The position numbers and the translations under genes were made by a program. Source: Planoprotostelium fungivorum (taxonomy: Eukaryota; Evosea; Variosea; Cavosteliida; Cavosteliaceae). From it: a DNA stretch of 35,671 nucleotides. Of the stretch, positions 1,360-27,867 are shown piece by piece (position 1 is the stretch's first letter; every line of letters starts with the position of its first letter). The notes below the pieces were generated by a model. It did no database searches, was not told the origin of the DNA, and saw nothing but the letters and a program-made list of their open reading frames with translations. The stretch is from assembly GCA_003024175.1 (NCBI GenBank), contig MDYQ01000190.1, positions 1 through 35,671 of the forward strand, given 5' to 3'.

Positions 1360-3217
1360 TTATAGATTAGTCACGTGTTCCCCTCCCAACCCCATCGCAA
1401 TGGACGGCACGACGGGGAGAACGTTCTGGTTTGTGAAGGCGCTGATCTCTTCGCTGGTCATCTCGTGTCCCTCCATCGTCATCTCTCCCTCTGTATCTTG
1501 GTCCGCCTCCTGCGGCTCATCCACCGGCTCTTCCACTTCGTTATCGACCTCTTCTTCGTCGTGTCCATCCATCTTCGATCCCATGCCGTAGGCTTCAGAG
1601 GGCAGGGCGCTGTCGTTCATCATGGCCTCATCGGTCTCCGTAGCCACTTCAGTCTCTCCCATCTCCACAGACTCTGCGGCGCTCCTCTTCCTGCCTCGAT
1701 TGACGCCGGGTCTGTACTTGATGGTTAAGAGGAGGTTGTCGGAGTCGTGGAGTTTCTTCGAGTTGATGACGGTCTGCTTGCTGACGGGGAGGACCTGGGG
1801 AGTCAGATCGATCTACAACGAGCCCGTTCACCTCTCGGAGGCGGGCGAGAGGGACGTTGTCGCTCATGGCTTTGATGAGAGGACGGCGGAGGGGAGACTT
1901 CTCTGGGAGTTGTTTCATGAACTCGATGATGTTCCGGCCGATGTGTTCGAAGATCTTCGTGTCCTCTAGTTTTGGAAAACGGTTCTCTAGAATATCGTCA
2001 GATAGAGTCTAGGGTGGATGGATGATGATTGTGGACGATGGATGGATGATGATGGAACACTCGACTCACGGTGATATGACGACTCGATGTAAGCCTCCAA
2101 CATCTTCGTTCCTTCCTCCTTTCCTCCCGCCCACTCATCGATCTTCTTGTCAAACGTCTTAAGTTTGGCATACTTGTTGGCGTGTTTCGAGAAGGGCGTG
2201 GGGGTTCTGCCTTTGGCAAACTTGACGTTCTCCACCTTCAAGTCGAGCTTGCCGCCCGATCTGCATTTCCATCAGATCCCATGTTCGAATGACCTCCATC
2301 ACCTCTCTTTCTGTTTCTGATGCATGGGACACAGTCGTCTCTGTCGGATCTGTCTGTCGCAGCCCACGGCGAGGCATGTGTTGAGTTGCATCTCCTTGTC
2401 CATCTTCCTCCTTCCTTTTCCTCCTTGCTCGGCATACATCCTCTCCATGTATTGTTCGGCCAGTCCCATGCCGTCCAAGTTGTCGTTTGGATCTCCCTGA
2501 AGGCCGATATCTGCATCGTAATCTCGAACTTGATCGTTGCTGTGTCCACTGAATTGTTGCATCGCTATGTTGCGTTTAGTATAGGTTTCAGCCGGGATGG
2601 GATCTGTATGAGAAAGGATATGCCACTCACTGGGATCCTCCGTATCGTCTACGAGTGAGCGCCGATACCCTGAAGAGAGCATGTGTCCAATGGTTGGGTA
2701 CTATTCATCGTGTGAGCGATTTCGTTCCTTCCTAATTTCTTACATGCATCTGGAGGTGCTCGGATTGAACCTCAGGATCGAAGTGGTGAGCGTGGAGGGG
2801 TAGAGTGTAATGGACTCCCGCATGTACCTCCACAAATCAATCCAAATGCATTCTAAAAATGCTCCAAAGAGGTGAGGGTCTCTTGCGTCTCTTACCTGAT
2901 GGTGCGAGGCATGGCTCCCGTAAGTACCCTCATGCGTCTTATCCAGATCCTCCATACTTGATTCCTATAGAGGCGTCAGCTCCTCTGTCCTCTCTCGGTC
3001 GCATGTTGCAGCGGAGCGACGTAATCATGTGACAAATGGGGAAAAGATGAAGTCGTCCTCATAGACGAGAAGAGAGAACACATAGAGATAGAGAACGAGA
3101 AGGATAGAGAGCTGAGACTACCTGAATGTCGACCTCCGAGAACTTATAAATGAAGACATCCGGGAATTTACTCTCCGGTAGTCTACAACGATTGGAACGA
3201 AAGAGGCTCCCAAATGT
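1360..3217 (-). CDS. Zinc-motif (C3Hc3H-like) nuclear protein, possibly KANSL2/INO80D-like; start codon not resolved
   Basis: Exons on the minus strand: 3122-3217, 2896-2964, 2744-2827, 2303-2700, 2070-2260, 1832-1986 and 1360-1794, all in one frame (about 475 residues). The first ATG in the joined frame is at 2953-2955; the 3122-3217 exon (containing FPDVFIYKFSEVDIQ) splices in frame before it through a 157-nt intron with a CTGAC branch site, so the true start is probably further upstream. Near the middle is CLAVGC followed nine residues later by CPMH, a C-x4-C-x9-C-x2-H spacing like that of the zf-C3Hc3H motif in KANSL2 and INO80D. The C-terminus is strongly acidic (Glu/Asp/Met-rich). A 27-nt stretch at 2604-2630 has intron-like ends but stays in frame whether kept or removed. 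The gene is well supported; the family assignment is tentative. Confidence 0.72.
1795..1831 (-). repeat. 37-nt intron carrying the recurrent ATCTACAACG element
   Basis: The core ATCTACAACG is at 1811-1820 on the plus strand, so it is antisense to the host gene (read as CGTTGTAGAT in the intron). An AGATCGATCT palindrome overlaps it. The exon frame is continuous across the intron, so this is a genuine intron. Confidence 0.7.
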
Positions 3218-10547: not shown

Positions 10548-12251
10548 CTATCTGCAGCGAGAGCCACCGGGAGTGCACTTGGGCTTTCCGTCGTTGCTGT
10601 ACTCTGAAGAGCAGCACTTGTTGGAGCACTCTGAAGAGGAAGAGCAGAACTCCCAGTCACCCTTGTTGCCTCCAGCAGTCACACACTTGGTGCCGTTGGG
10701 TGTGCACTTGGTCTTGCCATCGCCGCTGTACTGAGAGGAGCAGCATCTACAACGAGTCAATCTCCGTCGAAACGAGATGTCTCACCCGTTGGAGCATTCA
10801 GAAGAAGTGGTGCAGAAGTCCCAGTCTCCCTTGTTTCCACTGTTACCTCCTCCGTTGCCGCTGCTGCTGCCACCTCCATTTCCACTGCTACCTCCGTTGG
10901 TGTAGTTGAATCCAGCCCATGTGAACTGAGAAGCGACCTGTCTACGTGTGACCATCTACAACGTTGTAGACGGCGGTCACCTTCAGGGCGGCGGCGGCGA
11001 GTCTGACGTGGGTGTTCCAGGCGTTGCTGTTGGTGTAGTACTCGTAGTCACCGGCTGTACGATGTCACGCCGAGTCAACGAATCGATCTCACATTTGGCG
11101 TTGATGAATTGCCATGGGAACCAAGGTACACCCATGCTGTTGCAGTAGGCACCCTGGCTGCTGATGTCTCCAGCCTGAGCGTTTCCAGTGGAGCCGAACT
11201 CCTCGTAGATGACTCTCTTTCCGTACTTCTTGGCCTGTTCCCGTTCAGCCTCGATGAACGATGCATCGTGATCGTCATCGTCACCTTGTTGATGGCTGTG
11301 GGTAGGTTGTTGGTGAGGGCACCGTAACCGTCGTAGCTGTGGAGTCCGATGACGTCGATGTGCTTGCACTGGAAGTTGGCATCCTGAAGGGAATCTCTCC
11401 AGTTGTAACCACCTCCGGTGGTGACGAAGATCTTCGAGTCGATGGCGGGGCGGATGACGGCGGCTCTGTCGCAGAACCAGGTCCAGGGGCCGTTGTAAGA
11501 GTCCATGTGGCCTCTTCCTTCGTTCTGGACTCCAAAAGCCCAGATGGCTTCGGGGATGTTGGCCCAAGCTCTGAGAGGTGGTCAGATGATGATGGGGTGG
11601 AGATGTGGAGGACGCACTTGTTGTTGAAGTAGGGGTTCTTGTGGGCCAAGATGTGACGGATGCGGTTGTCGAAATCACCTCCTGCATTTTGGTAGAAGCT
11701 GACTGGGTTCTGAGAGTCTCCGTACTTCTTGGTGTAACCGTCCTGTTTCGCGTCAGATCGGAAGATGGAGGTGTGATGATATCACTCACGTGTTGCCAGG
11801 TGCCGAGAGAGTAACGATCGTGGAGGACGATGTTCAATTTGAGGCCCAACTGGCTGCATTCGTACATGAGCTTGTCGATCTTGCTCAAGATGCCTGTCGA
11901 ACATGAGATCCTCCATCACGATATCATATCACGCACCATCTTGGTAACTTCCAACGGCCCACTCTTCGACATCAGGGGTACCTGAGGCGGACGTAGACTT
12001 GTCTCCGTTGCCAATGTGGACGACAAAGATACGGATAACTTTGATGTTGGCATTCGCCAGGGCTCTCAAATGAGCACCACGGTCTGATCTCATTTCAGTC
12101 ACGACGCCTCCATCTTCCACAATCTCTCACCCGAATCGGATAGAGCCCACAAGAAATAGCTGTTGGCTCCGGACCAATTGTTGTCGGCCTGAGCGACAGC
12201 GCTCATCGCCAACAGGGCGAGAAGAGCCAAGGATACAGTCTTGCACAGCAT
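10548..12251 (-). CDS. Secreted GH5 endoglycanase (cellulase/mannanase type) with two C-terminal cysteine-rich modules
   Basis: Hydrolyses beta-linked polysaccharides outside the cell or in food vacuoles. Nine exons on the minus strand (12131-12251, 11937-12083, 11790-11893, 11618-11742, 11285-11570, 11093-11249, 10981-11054, 10786-10937, 10548-10746) give 454 residues. A signal peptide (SLALLALLAMSAVAQA) precedes the catalytic domain. GH5 landmarks are IKVIRIFVV, FGVQNEGRGHM with the acid/base Glu after Asn, and RVIYEEFGSTG with the nucleophile Glu. After FTWAGFNY comes a Gly/Ser/Asn linker and two copies of a module built on KGDWxFC, ECxxxCCSS, DGKxKCTPxG and a final Cys, probably substrate binding. 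The fold is GH5; whether the substrate is cellulose, mannan or another glucan is not decided by sequence. It is tail-to-tail with the mannosidase. Confidence 0.93.
10747..10785 (-). repeat. 39-nt endoglycanase intron whose 3' splice site lies in the ATCTACAACG element
   Basis: The element (10745-10754 on the plus strand) is read on the coding strand as CGTTGTAG|AT, so its TAG is the acceptor. The downstream exon opens with the duplicated CCSSQYS module. Confidence 0.7.
10938..10980 (-). repeat. 43-nt intron with a perfect 16-nt palindrome inside GTGACC/GGTCAC arms
   Basis: TCTACAACGTTGTAGA (10955-10970) is perfectly palindromic. On the coding strand GTGACC at the donor pairs with GGTCAC downstream, so most of the intron can fold into one stem with a small bulge. 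It is the best example of the recurrent element. Confidence 0.82.
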
Positions 12252-13359: not shown

Positions 13360-14489
13360 TCACGGTGCAACTGTTCGGTAGAGGGAAGAGATAGCCTTCT
13401 TCCACCAAGGTGCCTGATGAGCCGTGAAGAAACTGTGAGGTGAAGCTCGTATGGCAGCCAAGGGCCTCCAAGCTCGAATGAGAGATACGCGGTTGCCACC
13501 TCCAAAGAGACCAGCAAAGAGGTGAAGGTGGTCCATGACGAAGGGATATTCAACAGACTGCTCAGACATCAGTGGCGGCACAGATCGTCATCGTGATGGG
13601 ATCACCTGAAAGATGAAAGGGTGATCGTCTAAACGAGAGATCTTCAAAGATATTGTGCTCTCGCGAGGGTTGTACCAGTTGGTTTTAGAGATTCGCACCG
13701 ATATCCCTGTTTCCATTTGAGTTCGAGATGATATAGAGGTAAGCACCTATGGATGAGGTGTCCCAATTGATTCTGGGGATGGGCGTGCCTCCATCGATGC
13801 CGTAATGTCGGCCGTCGGTGGCAAACATGGAGGTGATGTGATCGTCCACGTGTTCACCCAATTGAACCTGTTGATCTGCAGGGGTCGGATGGCGGATACC
13901 CAAGACGACATGGTAAGGACCTTGAGTGCATTAGAACATCATGATCGATTGTGATGTCCCAGACGTACCATCACCTCTCTCGACTTCGAATTCAAAATGG
14001 TACAGACCCTCCGCTTGGATGTCATCGTTCAGACGAACACTGTATGAGTTACAACACGTGTCTCTCGCCACCATTCATACCTTCTACTCAATGGAGTATA
14101 CTCTTTCGGGAGTCTACAGGTTCGATCCTCATCATCCAAGATGATGTCTTCGTGTTTGAGCATGGTCCAAGGAGGAAGCCACCCTTCTCCCGTCAGTGAA
14201 CACTCAATGTACTGAACTCACAGCGTAAACGGAAGCGATCCCTCCATGTGACTTCTGATTCGCAAATGCGATCTTCTTCTAGCAGGAGACTCAGCTGATT
14301 TAATCTCTCTAGGAGAGATTTTTCTTCTTTTAATAGCCAGTGTGCGTATAACCTCTTCCAAAATGCTTGATTGTCTGTCACATAATACATGCGCCGACAA
14401 GTCTGTAACACGTGGACCAGATACCTTGGATTGAGGTGAATGATGATGTTTCTGAGGAGGTCATCTGGCAGATCGAGCAGTCCGCTCAT
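13360..14489 (-). CDS. F-box protein with a SPRY-like C-terminal domain
   Basis: Probable substrate receptor of an SCF (Skp1-Cullin-F-box) ubiquitin ligase. Six exons (14222-14489, 14081-14183, 13969-14039, 13747-13920, 13606-13706, 13360-13557) give 304 residues. The F-box begins at once: LLDLPDDLLRNIIIHLNP, then TCRRMYYVTDNQAFWKRLY. The C-terminal half is beta-rich; SVRLNDDIQAEGLYHFEFEV followed by YHVVLGIRHP resembles the core of a B30.2/SPRY domain, as in Fbxo45, but I would not insist on it. I chose the ATG immediately before the F-box; 30 more in-frame codons exist upstream to 14579. It is head-to-head with the RasGEF, 230 bp apart. Confidence 0.85.
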
Positions 14490-14719
14490 TGTTGGTGACA
14501 AAAAAAATTGAATGTTTTTATAAAAACAGAATTCTTTCAGGTCTCCAAACTGATCGCCATGCTGCATCAGTCGCAACACGTGCAGCTTAGTGAGCGAGAC
14601 AGAAGACCCAGTAAGCTCATCCGAAGCGTGGAGCTATCTTCGTCCGATGTCTTCGGTGTGTGAAGCGATAGAGTCTCCTCCGTCTGAAGATATTAGATCT
14701 AAAAACGAGAGCAGAATGG

Positions 14720-23665: not shown

Positions 23666-24526
23666 TGTTGTCTTTGTTTGCTGTGACCCCGCAGTAGTTT
23701 CCAATTCACTGAAAATTGGTTTTTGGTTCAAACATTTGGTCTTCCAGAAGAGTTCAGATGGACCGTAGAACGAGCTTTGATGTGGAGTTCGTCGTTACGT
23801 CCTTGTTCCAGACAACATCTCACGGATGAAGCTTTTAGCGGCTCATCCTGGATAGAATTCGTGATCTCCATGAACTTTGGAATCCGTAAATGAGCGCGAA
23901 TTAATTCGAAGGAGTCAGCCAGCTGATGAACAACACTGCCGGTCTATCGTGTCGCAATGAATGAATAGGGCTTCACCCTTGTGAATCGAATCATCTTTGC
24001 GTTCGTCACTGGAGAGAGGTTTGCACCTCGAACGAATCGACACGAAGAGTCTCTGAGACTACACGTGTATTAAAGGCGATGGAGGACGGATCGTGAGAGG
24101 GTGAAGGAGTTCCAGTCAAATGTCTACACATGTGCCCTACAACACACAATCGTACTCTGAAATGTAGACAAACAACAAAAACAAGAGCACACAGTTCCGC
24201 ATCTTTGAGGATCGCCCTTCCCTTGTGGTCTTCAACGTGATACCGTCACTCAGTCTGTTGGACAGAGAGAACTTGCTGCGGTTCACACACAAACCCGAGA
24301 AGGTAATGCTTGTTTGAAATAACCAACGATTACGATTGTCATGAGAGAAAGAAGAGAGGAGTCTTCTTGGACACTATCGACGGATTTAGTCGAACTCTCA
24401 TGTTAACGAAAATGTCTCTTTAGAAGCAACATCTGGCGCAGGTCCACCTACAGACAGAGGACTGATTGTCTTTAGGGCTATTCACGTTCTGAGAGATCGC
24501 TGAGAGCGTATGCTTGGACCTAAATC
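23666..24526. promoter_or_regulatory. Divergent region between the propeller-RING and F-box/CK1 genes
   Basis: 861 bp separate the two start codons. A stretch at about 24182-24302 reads as protein-like text (QFRIFEDRPSLVVFN, then IPSLSLLDRENLLRF) and ends at a GTAATG donor, but has no ATG and a TAG just upstream. It may be an unplaced 5' exon or a fragment. Otherwise I see no gene. The region must contain both promoters. Confidence 0.45.
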
Positions 24527-27500
24527 ATGCTTCGTAGACTGTCCATAGGAGGGAAGAAGAAGGATAAGAGTAAAGCGAGCACACCTGCTAGCACTAATCC
24601 ACTTCTTCTGTCTCAAGCTCGCACATCTAGCTCCGGCAGTGGTAAGTCTTTTAATTAGACCTCTGAATCAGGTGGAAGAAGTAGAGGAACTGACGCCGAC
24701 AGAATATACGCCCCGCATTACCAATCTTTTAGAACTCCCCGAGTCTCTGCTGTGTCAGATTCTAGTTCTACTCCGCAGTGTCGATGTTATACAGTTCCTC
24801 AGTGTCAATCGACAGGTGAGAGGAGAGAATGAAAGATGAGATTAAAAGGTCACAGTGCAGAGCTATCGGAGAATCGAATCGAGTGTGGAAGATCTTGGTC
24901 ATTCGAGACTGGACGCTGCCGAATCCAAGGACGAGAGAGTGGAAGAAATACTACGAGAAGAGGTGAGACCATATTCCACATGTGATTTCGGATTATCGTG
25001 TGATTCTCATTGCCTCGCGTGACCTCCAAAGGTATCTCACCAAGACGTCTCGCGTGAAAGACATCGACCAGCCACCTGTCAACAAGAGAAGCACCGTCGT
25101 CTACTCAGCCCAAGCCGTGTCGAAGGTGAGCAGACGAGGTCAGCACGTGAACCAATGCATTCCAGATCATGGATAGAGAGACATCCAATCGTAAGAGCGT
25201 CAACTACGGTTACAACACCAACGGTAACGGTGAACACCAACCACTGGACCAACCGGAGAGAAACCATCTCATGTCATCCATCAACGAATACGATGACATC
25301 TGCGACGTACCCCCCTCCGATCAAGACGAAGGTGACTCACCCTCCATCGACATCATGCGATCTCATCCTCCATCATCTGAGATGACTTCAGGAAACAACG
25401 GAGCCGTTTCCAATACAAACAGCCCCATGTTGAGTCGGCCCAGCAGCCACTCCCTCGTCAAGAACGGAATGAACGGAGCCAACTTACTCAACGCGTCGAG
25501 AGAGAATCAGACGGCGGGAACAGAGGGGGGGAGGGAGGTCATGGTACAGTCGGGAGTACAGCAGGGCCTGCAGCCTAGCAACGGAATGGTGGCCAACGGT
25601 GCGGTGCAGATGAACCAACCTACGGGCATAGCACTGTTCAAGCAGATGGATTACATGATTTATGGAAAGTACAAACTGCTGGATAAGTTGGGGTCGGGAT
25701 CGTTTGGAGAGATCTATTCTGGGATATGTGTCACGGATGGAGAGAAGATTGCCATCAAGCTGGTGATTCATCCTCATACATCTATCTCTGTATCATCCCA
25801 TCTTACTCTCCATCTCATCACATCTTATCATCCCATCTTGCTCTATGTCATTGTATCTCATCCTAAACCATCGTATCTCATTCTATGTCTTATACGTTTA
25901 CACACATCAATCGAAATGTACTCAAGTTCCAAGGAATCACTTCGCACACGGCATCCCCAACTCCATTACGAGTCCAGAGTGTACAAGATACTGAAGGGAG
26001 GAGGTGAGAGGGACACATAGACATCGGTGACAGAGACAGTGGGTATTCCCAACGCGAGATGGTTTGGAGTGGAGGGAGACTACAGCATCATGATCATGGA
26101 TATTCTGGGCTCCTCCCTCGAGGACCTCTTTGCCTACTGCGATCGAAAGTTCTCCCTGAAGACGATTCTCATGCTCGCTCAACAGATGGTGATACATCGA
26201 TCTACAACGACATCATCTACAACGACATGAGATGTGACCCTATACAGATCCGTTTGATCGAATTCTTACACTCTAGAAACTTCATCCACAGAGACATCAA
26301 GGTGAATCCTCTCACGAATTGTAACGTGACGCCCACAGCCCGACAACTTTATGATGGGAAGGAGCAAGAAATCTTCCACTGTTCACATGATCGATTTCGG
26401 TCTGGCAAAGAAATACCGCGACTCAAAGACACACCAGCACGTCCCATACAAGACACTCAAATCTCTCACCGGTACACCCAGATATGCCTCCATCAACACG
26501 CATCTCGGTATAGGTCAGTACACAACCATGTCATCCACTCGCAAACTGACGCCACGACAGAGCAGAGTAGAAGAGATGATCTCGAGTCGCTCGGTTACGT
26601 TCTCCTCTACTTCTGCAGGGGAAATCTTCCGTGGCAAGGACTTCCCGCCAAAAACAAGAAGACGAAATATCAGAAGATCACGGAGAAGAAGGTGTGTAGA
26701 TCGTATTCGTAATACAGCATGACGAGGGTAGGTGTCCACCACGGTGGAGCAGCTGTGCGAGGGGCATCCAGGTGAGAGAGAGGAAGAGAGAAGAGCTGAG
26801 ACAGAGACAGCCGAATTCGTGACGTACCTCAAGTACACGAAAAACCTGCGCTTCGCTGATAAGCCGGATTACGATTATCTATTCAAGCTCTTTCGTGATC
26901 TATTCATTCGAAAGGGATACAAATACGATGGCATCTACGATTGGACGGTCCGCCTGCAGGTGATTATCTTCACCCTCTCTTCATCTTCACATCTCCACAT
27001 TTCACTTTTTTCATCCATCACACATTTCACCTACGATGTGATATACCACGATATAACATCTACTTGATGAATGACACACGTTATAACATCTACTTGATGA
27101 ATGACACACGTTATAACATCTACTTGATGAATGACACACGTTATGACATCTACTTGATGAATGACACACACGCAGCAAGAAGAGGCAGCGAAGGAGAGAA
27201 AGGAATACCTCGGAACGCCACGCATCGGTGGAGAGACGACGACGAGCAACATAGCGTCTGCCACGGGAACGGCGAGGGAAACGATGGCCATGACTACCGA
27301 GGCCACCTCACAGGAGCCCAGCACGTCCCACGTGGAATCGAAGCCAGAGCCGACCACACCCCCTACGACGAGAGAGAAGACGGGGACCATGCGGCAGAGA
27401 CTGTCCACTCGGCTCCTTCGTCCCATCAACTTTATGACCTCTTCGAGCGATGACGGTGAGATCATCATCAGCAGCAGCACGAGATGATGTTGTTATGGAT

Positions 27501-27625
27501 GGTGTTGATTCGTGTGAATAGTGGGGGAGAAGAAGGAAAAGAAGGAGAAGAAGGAGAAGAAAGAGAAGAAAGAAAAGAAGGAGAAGGAGAAGAAAGAGAA
27601 GAAGGAGAAGAAGGAGAAGAAATGA
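24527..27625 (+). CDS. F-box protein fused to a complete casein kinase 1 (CK1) domain
   Basis: Fourteen exons (24527-24641, 24703-24815, 24856-24962, 25032-25125, 25166-25762, 25934-26003, 26040-26188, 26248-26301, 26339-26513, 26561-26691, 26732-26771, 26811-26959, 27176-27455, 27522-27625) give 725 residues, all in frame. Residues about 45-100 are an F-box: [40 protein letters not shown] Ser/Asn/Gly-rich linker follows. From about residue 310 comes a full CK1: [92 protein letters not shown]. The tail is Thr/Glu-rich and ends in a Lys/Glu repeat. No stop or poly(A) signal separates the halves. An ATG at 25169 could start a kinase-only form. The first acceptor (24702) was chosen for its CTGAC branch site; three nearby acceptors also keep frame. 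Confidence 0.85.
26189..26247 (+). repeat. CK1 intron with a 15-nt tandem duplication of the ATCTACAACG element
   Basis: ATCTACAACGACATC at 26200-26214 is followed at once by ATCTACAACGACATG at 26215-26229, so the element is duplicated in tandem within a 59-nt intron. Flanking exons join exactly between QQM and IRLIEF, as CK1 alignment demands. Confidence 0.82.
27051..27170 (+). repeat. Intronic minisatellite, four copies of a 30-nt unit
   Basis: Four near-identical 30-nt units, each starting ATAACATCTACTTGATGAAT and ending in GACACACG(TT), sit in the 216-nt intron before the CK1 tail exon. Each unit contains a TGAATGAC segment that could act as a branch point. The last copy changes TTATAAC to TTATGAC. 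Confidence 0.85.
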
Positions 27626-27867
27626 GGAGACAGTCGGGTGAGTGAGAGAGGGAGGGGTGTGACTGATGTGGAATAGAGGAAAGAGATTGAGCATGTACGA
27701 GTAGATCATATGAACTAGTGTACACATTCTATACATAACGTAGCTTTTGTTCATTTCCTCAATAAAGACATATCAGTAGCGAAATCGAGGTTGGCTCATC
27801 TTGTACGTTTCTTGTTTGTAGACGGTGCACGTCATCTGGCCTCCACGATCACAATTTGATATCAAAG

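Follow-up and report, generated by a model that had tools for sequence, protein, structure and literature searches.

A Predicted Single-Gene Combination of an F-Box and a Complete Casein Kinase 1 Domain in Planoprotostelium fungivorum

Predicted Structure of the Probable F-Box/CK1 Gene

The window analyzed here (35,671 nt) is the whole of one contig (C136) of an assembly of 36.9 Mb in 471 contigs. On its forward strand, 14 exons between positions 24527 and 27625 join, as the initial annotation had proposed, into one frame of 725 residues whose sole stop lies at the end, and all introns (13/13) start with GT and end with AG. The predicted protein contains, in this order, an F-box (residues 47-88), a linker, a complete CK1-type kinase that begins at about residue 309, and a Lys/Glu tail.

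The gene model was self-trained on the window and on 14 other stretches of the same genome; at convergence, it contained 62 genes and 213 introns, with a median intron length of 43 nt, donors close to AG|GTGAG and acceptors close to CAG. For the leave-out model, six rounds of re-estimation were run from the full model with positions 23901-27650 excluded. Exons 1-5 and most of the kinase exons were placed by splice scores. For the intron 26772-26810 and the start of exon 6, CK1 homology was used instead, as the gene model either read through these features or put them in the wrong place. The gene model missed the introns 25763-25933 and 26772-26810, set exon 6 wrongly when the locus was left out, and failed to include the first exons of two other kinases of this genome, those of contigs C454 and C47.

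Exon 1 (24527-24641) runs in frame from an ATG through a basic, Ser-rich N-terminus (residues 1-38). Its coding score was -4.1 with all data and -4.5 in the leave-out model, and its donor is weak (0.87); exon 1 and this donor are the least certain piece of the gene model. Intron 1 (24642-24702, 61 nt) was given a revised end, with an acceptor score of 2.58. Two alternative ends, at 24732 and 24678, had acceptor scores of -2.13 and -2.94; the latter was rejected for its weak score, and an end at 24671 was discarded since it broke the frame when checked by hand. The total of the gene model was about 2 nats higher with the weak 24732 acceptor than with 24702; the 24732 acceptor would shorten exon 2 at its start while keeping the F-box from LP onwards. 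Exon 2 probably starts at 24703.

Exon 2 (24703-24815) encodes the first part of the F-box, a stretch of 27 residues assigned with F-box HMMs, and its leave-out coding score (-1.1) was the highest among the six readings. Intron 2 (24816-24855, 40 nt) falls within the F-box, with an acceptor of 2.96 and a donor of 6.03, which is the 95th percentile among predicted donors. The end of the F-box and a W..RDW..WKKYYEK stretch are encoded by exon 3 (24856-24962; coding score +9.1, leave-out +6.3), for which, taken alone (35 residues), structure prediction gave two helices with a mean pLDDT of 64.4. Intron 3 (24963-25031, 69 nt; donor 5.41, acceptor 1.32) precedes exon 4 (25032-25125), the bridge between F-box and kinase (residues 112-143). 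Intron 4 (25126-25165, 40 nt; donor 5.30, AAG|GTGAGC; acceptor 0.54) is in phase 0, in agreement with the initial annotation. The donors of introns 2-4 thus scored 5.3-6.0, predicted introns having a median of 3.6, and 95% of the GT sites on the forward strand of the window scored below about 2.0 as donors.

Exon 5 (25166-25762) encodes a linker of about 165 residues and then the start of the CK1 domain. The linker, which is probably disordered, was assigned by its coding score, +47.9 against -103 and -90 (leave-out, +32.8 against -103 and -93). The remainder of the CK1 domain, supported by homology, is encoded by exons 6-12 (25934-26003, 26040-26188, 26248-26301, 26339-26513, 26561-26691, 26732-26771, and 26811-26959), and exons 13 and 14 (27176-27455 and 27522-27625) encode the C-terminal tail up to the stop, ending in Lys/Glu repeats. 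An AATAAA lies downstream of this stop, at 27761. The Lys/Glu tail is encoded by a 9-base tandem repeat of 11 copies in the last exon (27526-27621), and its length may therefore vary.

A Complete CK1 Kinase Domain

That a full CK1 kinase begins at about residue 310 was confirmed. Pfam Pkinase matched residues 312-534 of the predicted protein (93.8 bits), and phmmer against PDB chains gave an E of 4.6e-138 to 3sv0_A (“Casein kinase I-like”) and of 4.1e-136 to CK1 delta (4tw9_A). The hallmarks of CK1 are a VAIK-type Lys, HRDxKPDN, DFG, and a CK1-type stretch of 10 residues; here we found IAIKL at 338, HRDIKPDN at 429, DFG (in DFGLAKK) at 452 and the 10-residue stretch at 492. Judged from its sequence, this half is a CK1 family kinase with a full catalytic domain. 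It is 63% identical to the CK1 of contig C454 and 44% identical to that of contig C84, two hand-spliced kinases of the same genome.

Like members of the CK1 family (delta/epsilon/alpha type), the kinase domain matches CK1 structures over its whole length, but in the predicted protein about 300 residues, the F-box among them, stand ahead of the kinase. In two kinome papers, the CK1 members of Dictyostelium are described, like CK1-group kinases elsewhere, as being without additional domains (PMC1420674), and the same is stated for the CK1-group kinases of Phytophthora (PMC3019232). If the fusion is real, this usual trait of CK1 does not hold for the present kinase.

We also scanned viral contigs with a CK1 alignment and obtained nine loci, seven of which (L034-L040) are CK1-like kinases of about 300 residues, the two others being distant matches. 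The seven are 43-44% identical to the window kinase; no F-box was seen by eye in the same ORF as any of them, nor do these ORFs leave room for one. The scan of a further contig collection gave four weak matches in bacterial records, with 26-30% identity over the kinase part.

Positions 27047-27169, in an intron of the CK1 gene of the window, are taken up by 4.1 copies of a 30-base tandem repeat (97% matches). By eye, a different short repeat lies in an intron of the corresponding kinase part of the C84 CK1 (about 2770-2900, reverse strand).

A Probable F-Box Ahead of the Kinase

The initial annotation had placed an F-box at about residues 45-100, and a match was indeed observed there, at residues 47-88, although below the gathering score of Pfam: with residues 1-143 as query, PF00646 scored 20.0 bits for a cut-off of 20.5, and 17.0 bits in the whole protein. 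PF12937 (18.1 of 24.3 bits) and PF15966 (13.5 of 32) matched the same place, both below their cut-offs. Because Pfam alone was not decisive, we built an F-box HMM of this genome from 39 of 40 fetched F-box stretches, those that were long enough. With this HMM, the domain ranked first of 20,001 when compared with 20,000 shuffles of its own sequence (15.3 bits, the next scoring 11.3). In a splice scan of 15 loci (324 kb with both strands counted, 3,646 introns, 7,953 peptides from long ORFs or plausible splicing), it reached 17.2 bits and ranked sixth of 7,953, with an E of about 1.8e-7 per peptide. Five peptides ranked higher: three readings of a single F-box of contig C84 that was itself used in training (as one of the 39 rows), one peptide of locus L028, and the window's other F-box, at 14.2-14.6 kb.

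The score depended on the junction between exons 2 and 3, being 17.2 bits when spliced at 24816-24855, 11.3 and 10.6 bits with other acceptors, and 9.9 bits unspliced. Homology and splice signals thus agree on the intron 24816-24855, the highest score being obtained where the splice signals are strongest. The F-box consensus consists of LP, hydrophobic positions, and a W near the end, and by eye these positions are kept in residues 47-88. The search of PDB with the F-box half gave a best E of 0.57, F-box only protein 2 appearing at E 1.5. No close copy of this half was found in the genome, where the seven matches were four to itself and three at E 0.02 to 0.16.

These data bear on the alternative in which the fusion is real but the F-box no longer binds Skp1, leaving a CK1 with an odd N-terminus and no SCF. 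Such a loss would be consistent with Pfam scores below threshold; the conserved consensus positions and the 17.2 bits obtained with the genome’s own F-box model argue against it, and we regard it as unlikely, though the least unlikely of the alternatives. It partly coincides with the outcome, considered below under the preferred explanation, in which the protein has neither of the proposed roles.

One Gene or Two

Without removal of intron 3, translation would stop at once (TGA at 24964-24966), and the CK1 could begin at an ATG at 25169, about 200 bases further on; the case for a single gene therefore rests on exon 4 and on introns 3 and 4. Retention of intron 4 likewise leads to a stop (TAG at 25174-25176). 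The claim that no stop separates the two halves consequently stands for the spliced path only. As for the poly(A) signal, said to be missing between them, AATAAA is indeed absent from 24816-25657, but this means little because such a signal follows the stop within 200 nt in only 11 of the 61 predicted genes (compared with 108/2,000 random and 3/295 coding stretches). None of the words enriched upstream of 55 predicted genes was judged usable.

Two neighboring genes could thus be present, a short F-box gene made of exons 1-3 and ending at the TGA, and an ordinary CK1 gene starting at 25169, whose product, with an N-terminal extension beginning MDRETS, would be a plausible protein. The 200-base spacer offers enough room, since same-strand gaps of 62, 112, 149 and 207 nt are predicted among 33 elsewhere. 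The one-polypeptide reading nevertheless scores better than the two-gene reading. In the leave-out model, F-box and CK1 scored 73.09 as one gene and 63.68 as two, a difference of 9.41 nats, which was again obtained with exon 2 fixed at 24703 (71.02 versus 61.61). The spacer also contains a coding-like exon with good splice sites: exon 4 scored +9.0 in frame, against -4.0 and -17.1 in the other forward frames (leave-out, +6.8 against -3.5 and -16.7).

As a null test, other sequence was put in place of the 200 bases that precede the CK1 ATG (24969-25168), with the donor of intron 3 kept. The value of 9.41 was reached by 2 of 800 non-genic 200-mers (mean 2.49), the other 798 falling short, and by 1 of 500 dinucleotide shuffles (mean 1.59). 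Values above 0 were obtained for 746/800 non-genic draws and 442/500 shuffles; the method leans towards joining, so that only the size of the score counts, and the observed one lies outside this lean. For all 16 predicted same-strand neighbor pairs less than 1 kb apart, the joining score was between -68.24 and -0.07, a control that is partly circular because the same model had called these pairs separate. Taken against the short gaps and the immediate stop, these results make the two-gene alternative rather unlikely.

The unforced parse of either model, full or leave-out, ran from exon 3 through exons 4 and 5 into the kinase; when the locus was left out, exon 3 began at 24861. The unaided parse started at the ATG at 24829 (all data) or 24784 (leave-out) instead of 24527, leaving out the first part of the F-box. 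Forcing the F-box into the gene cost 7.0 to 10.5 nats (9.0 in the leave-out model with exon 2 at 24703), a cost repaid only by F-box homology. The single F-box/CK1 polypeptide of the initial annotation is accordingly preferred where it is compared with two genes, but its first exons are absent from the unaided parse. A lone kinase gene starting at 24829 or 24784, with only the second half of an F-box and so no F-box at all, the exon 2 match being due to chance or decay, would account for this best unaided parse, for the negative coding scores of exons 1 and 2, and for the lack of a Pfam match to the second half alone, but it is improbable given that the F-box homology spans the exon 2/3 junction and peaks at its best splice sites, and given the strength of the intron 2 donor. 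We consider the single-gene F-box/CK1 architecture, as a gene prediction, to be likely.

Other F-Box and Kinase Loci in the Genome

At least 108 F-box matches were present in the genome at E 0.001 or better, with 150 of 205 candidates scored. Skp1-family matches occurred at three places, and cullin-family matches numbered 29 when counted exon by exon, some of them on duplicate contigs; the SCF machinery therefore exists in this genome. Cullin matches with equal scores were noted on C364:11132-13214 and C391:8-2090, perhaps haplotype copies or the result of a recent duplication.

No F-box was found within 3-4 kb upstream of the three other CK1-group loci (C454, C84, and C47), so that, among these stronger kinase matches, the fusion has no second witness. 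At C84, the CK1 is followed downstream by a different predicted gene and only then by an F-box, and this pair was rejected. By eye, we compared 108 F-box places with 145 kinase places (126 of 1,404 kinase candidates scored). Close same-strand F-box/kinase pairs at C168, C149 (two pairs), and C362 were rejected since another predicted gene separated them in 4/4 cases, the gene model not predicting the F-box exons themselves at these four pairs. A fifth same-strand pair, at C65, is about 5 kb apart.

The CK1 of C84 is adjoined by a spliced predicted gene (C84:1765-2318, reverse strand; L016) with a weak match to Hcp (PF05638, 20.7 bits for a cut-off of 23.5). Hcp is the tube protein of the bacterial type VI system, and L016 is possibly of bacterial origin.

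Comparison With Known Systems and Proposed Function

In the substrate receptors of SCF ligases, the F-box is joined to WD40, LRR, or other domains, and one F-box of this genome lies, by eye, beside WD40-like frames (L006). The predicted protein has in common with these receptors a probable F-box near its N-terminus, followed by another domain, but where they carry a binding domain it has a protein kinase. A kinase and an E3 are also found in one chain in animal MAP3K1, with its PHD/RING. Plant U-box proteins offer a further comparison; the U-box binds E2 directly, an F-box would work through Skp1-Cul1, and the U-box protein kinases are of another group. As predicted here, a kinase and a ubiquitin-ligase module stand in one chain in these plant proteins, PUB groups being defined partly by a protein kinase domain, according to PMC8875423.

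In deGradFP, a nanobody is joined to the F-box. PMC9277568 describes this engineered SCF system with its anti-GFP nanobody; as proposed here, SCF is steered to its ligand by a new binding module, but deGradFP is man-made and its module is not a kinase. CK1 and SCF beta-TrCP act on one substrate, for example YAP (PMC7733671), as a kinase and an F-box protein in separate chains, whereas a single chain is predicted in the present case.

The titles and abstract openings of the open-access papers searched yielded no F-box/CK1 fusion, which agrees, as do the two kinome papers (PMC1420674 and PMC3019232), with the earlier statement that none had been described. Among passages of a survey of domains, F-box included, that are fused to those of transposons or viruses, no F-box/kinase pair was seen (PMC12062965). 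The domain order F-box-CK1 was not found in these publications; it is built from known families, and the sequence comparison covers this one eukaryotic genome.

Our preferred explanation, which we hold to be fairly likely, is that of one gene encoding an F-box, a long linker, and a complete CK1, the product being an SCF-docked kinase. The F-box would bind Skp1 and so dock the kinase on the SCF (Skp1-Cul1) ligase, and the kinase domain, on its linker of about 165 residues, would take the usual place of WD40 or LRR domains, holding and phosphorylating the substrate. Provided that the gene is single, there is about an even chance that the kinase is an SCF substrate receptor in this manner. It is less probable that the main effect of the F-box is a shorter-lived kinase, through ubiquitination in cis, and less so again that the protein has neither the receptor nor the self-destruct role. 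CK1 enzymes are regarded as constitutively active and as being placed by partners such as FAM83 proteins, as summarized in PMC7733671; we infer that a built-in F-box could either position the kinase or restrain it by self-ubiquitination. More tentatively, the protein may be a natural SCF subunit whose receptor is itself the degron-writing CK1, the substrate being phosphorylated and ubiquitinated in one docking, with canonical CK1 kept separate in the genome.

CK1 and SCF act in turn, as separate proteins, in several signaling and clock pathways. If the single-gene reading is true, phosphorylation and the ubiquitination that follows it would here have been wired together by evolution, CK1-group kinases would no longer be free of extra domains as a rule without exception, and the chain would suggest a design for a kinase-guided degrader. 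If there are two genes, the locus holds an ordinary CK1 and, next to it, a short F-box gene that is just as ordinary.

Other Features of the Contig

A second, clear F-box gene is located on the same contig, at 14193-14633 of the window on the reverse strand (PF00646, 38.5 bits). Rfam gave no match at gathering scores on the window. Also on the reverse strand, positions 10548-12251 encode a predicted protein whose start is signal-like and whose C-terminus carries two Cys-rich repeats; for this protein, there was no Pfam match at E 0.05. The window further contains a DM10/EF-hand gene; this family is associated with cilia, and the host is thus perhaps a ciliated or flagellated protist.
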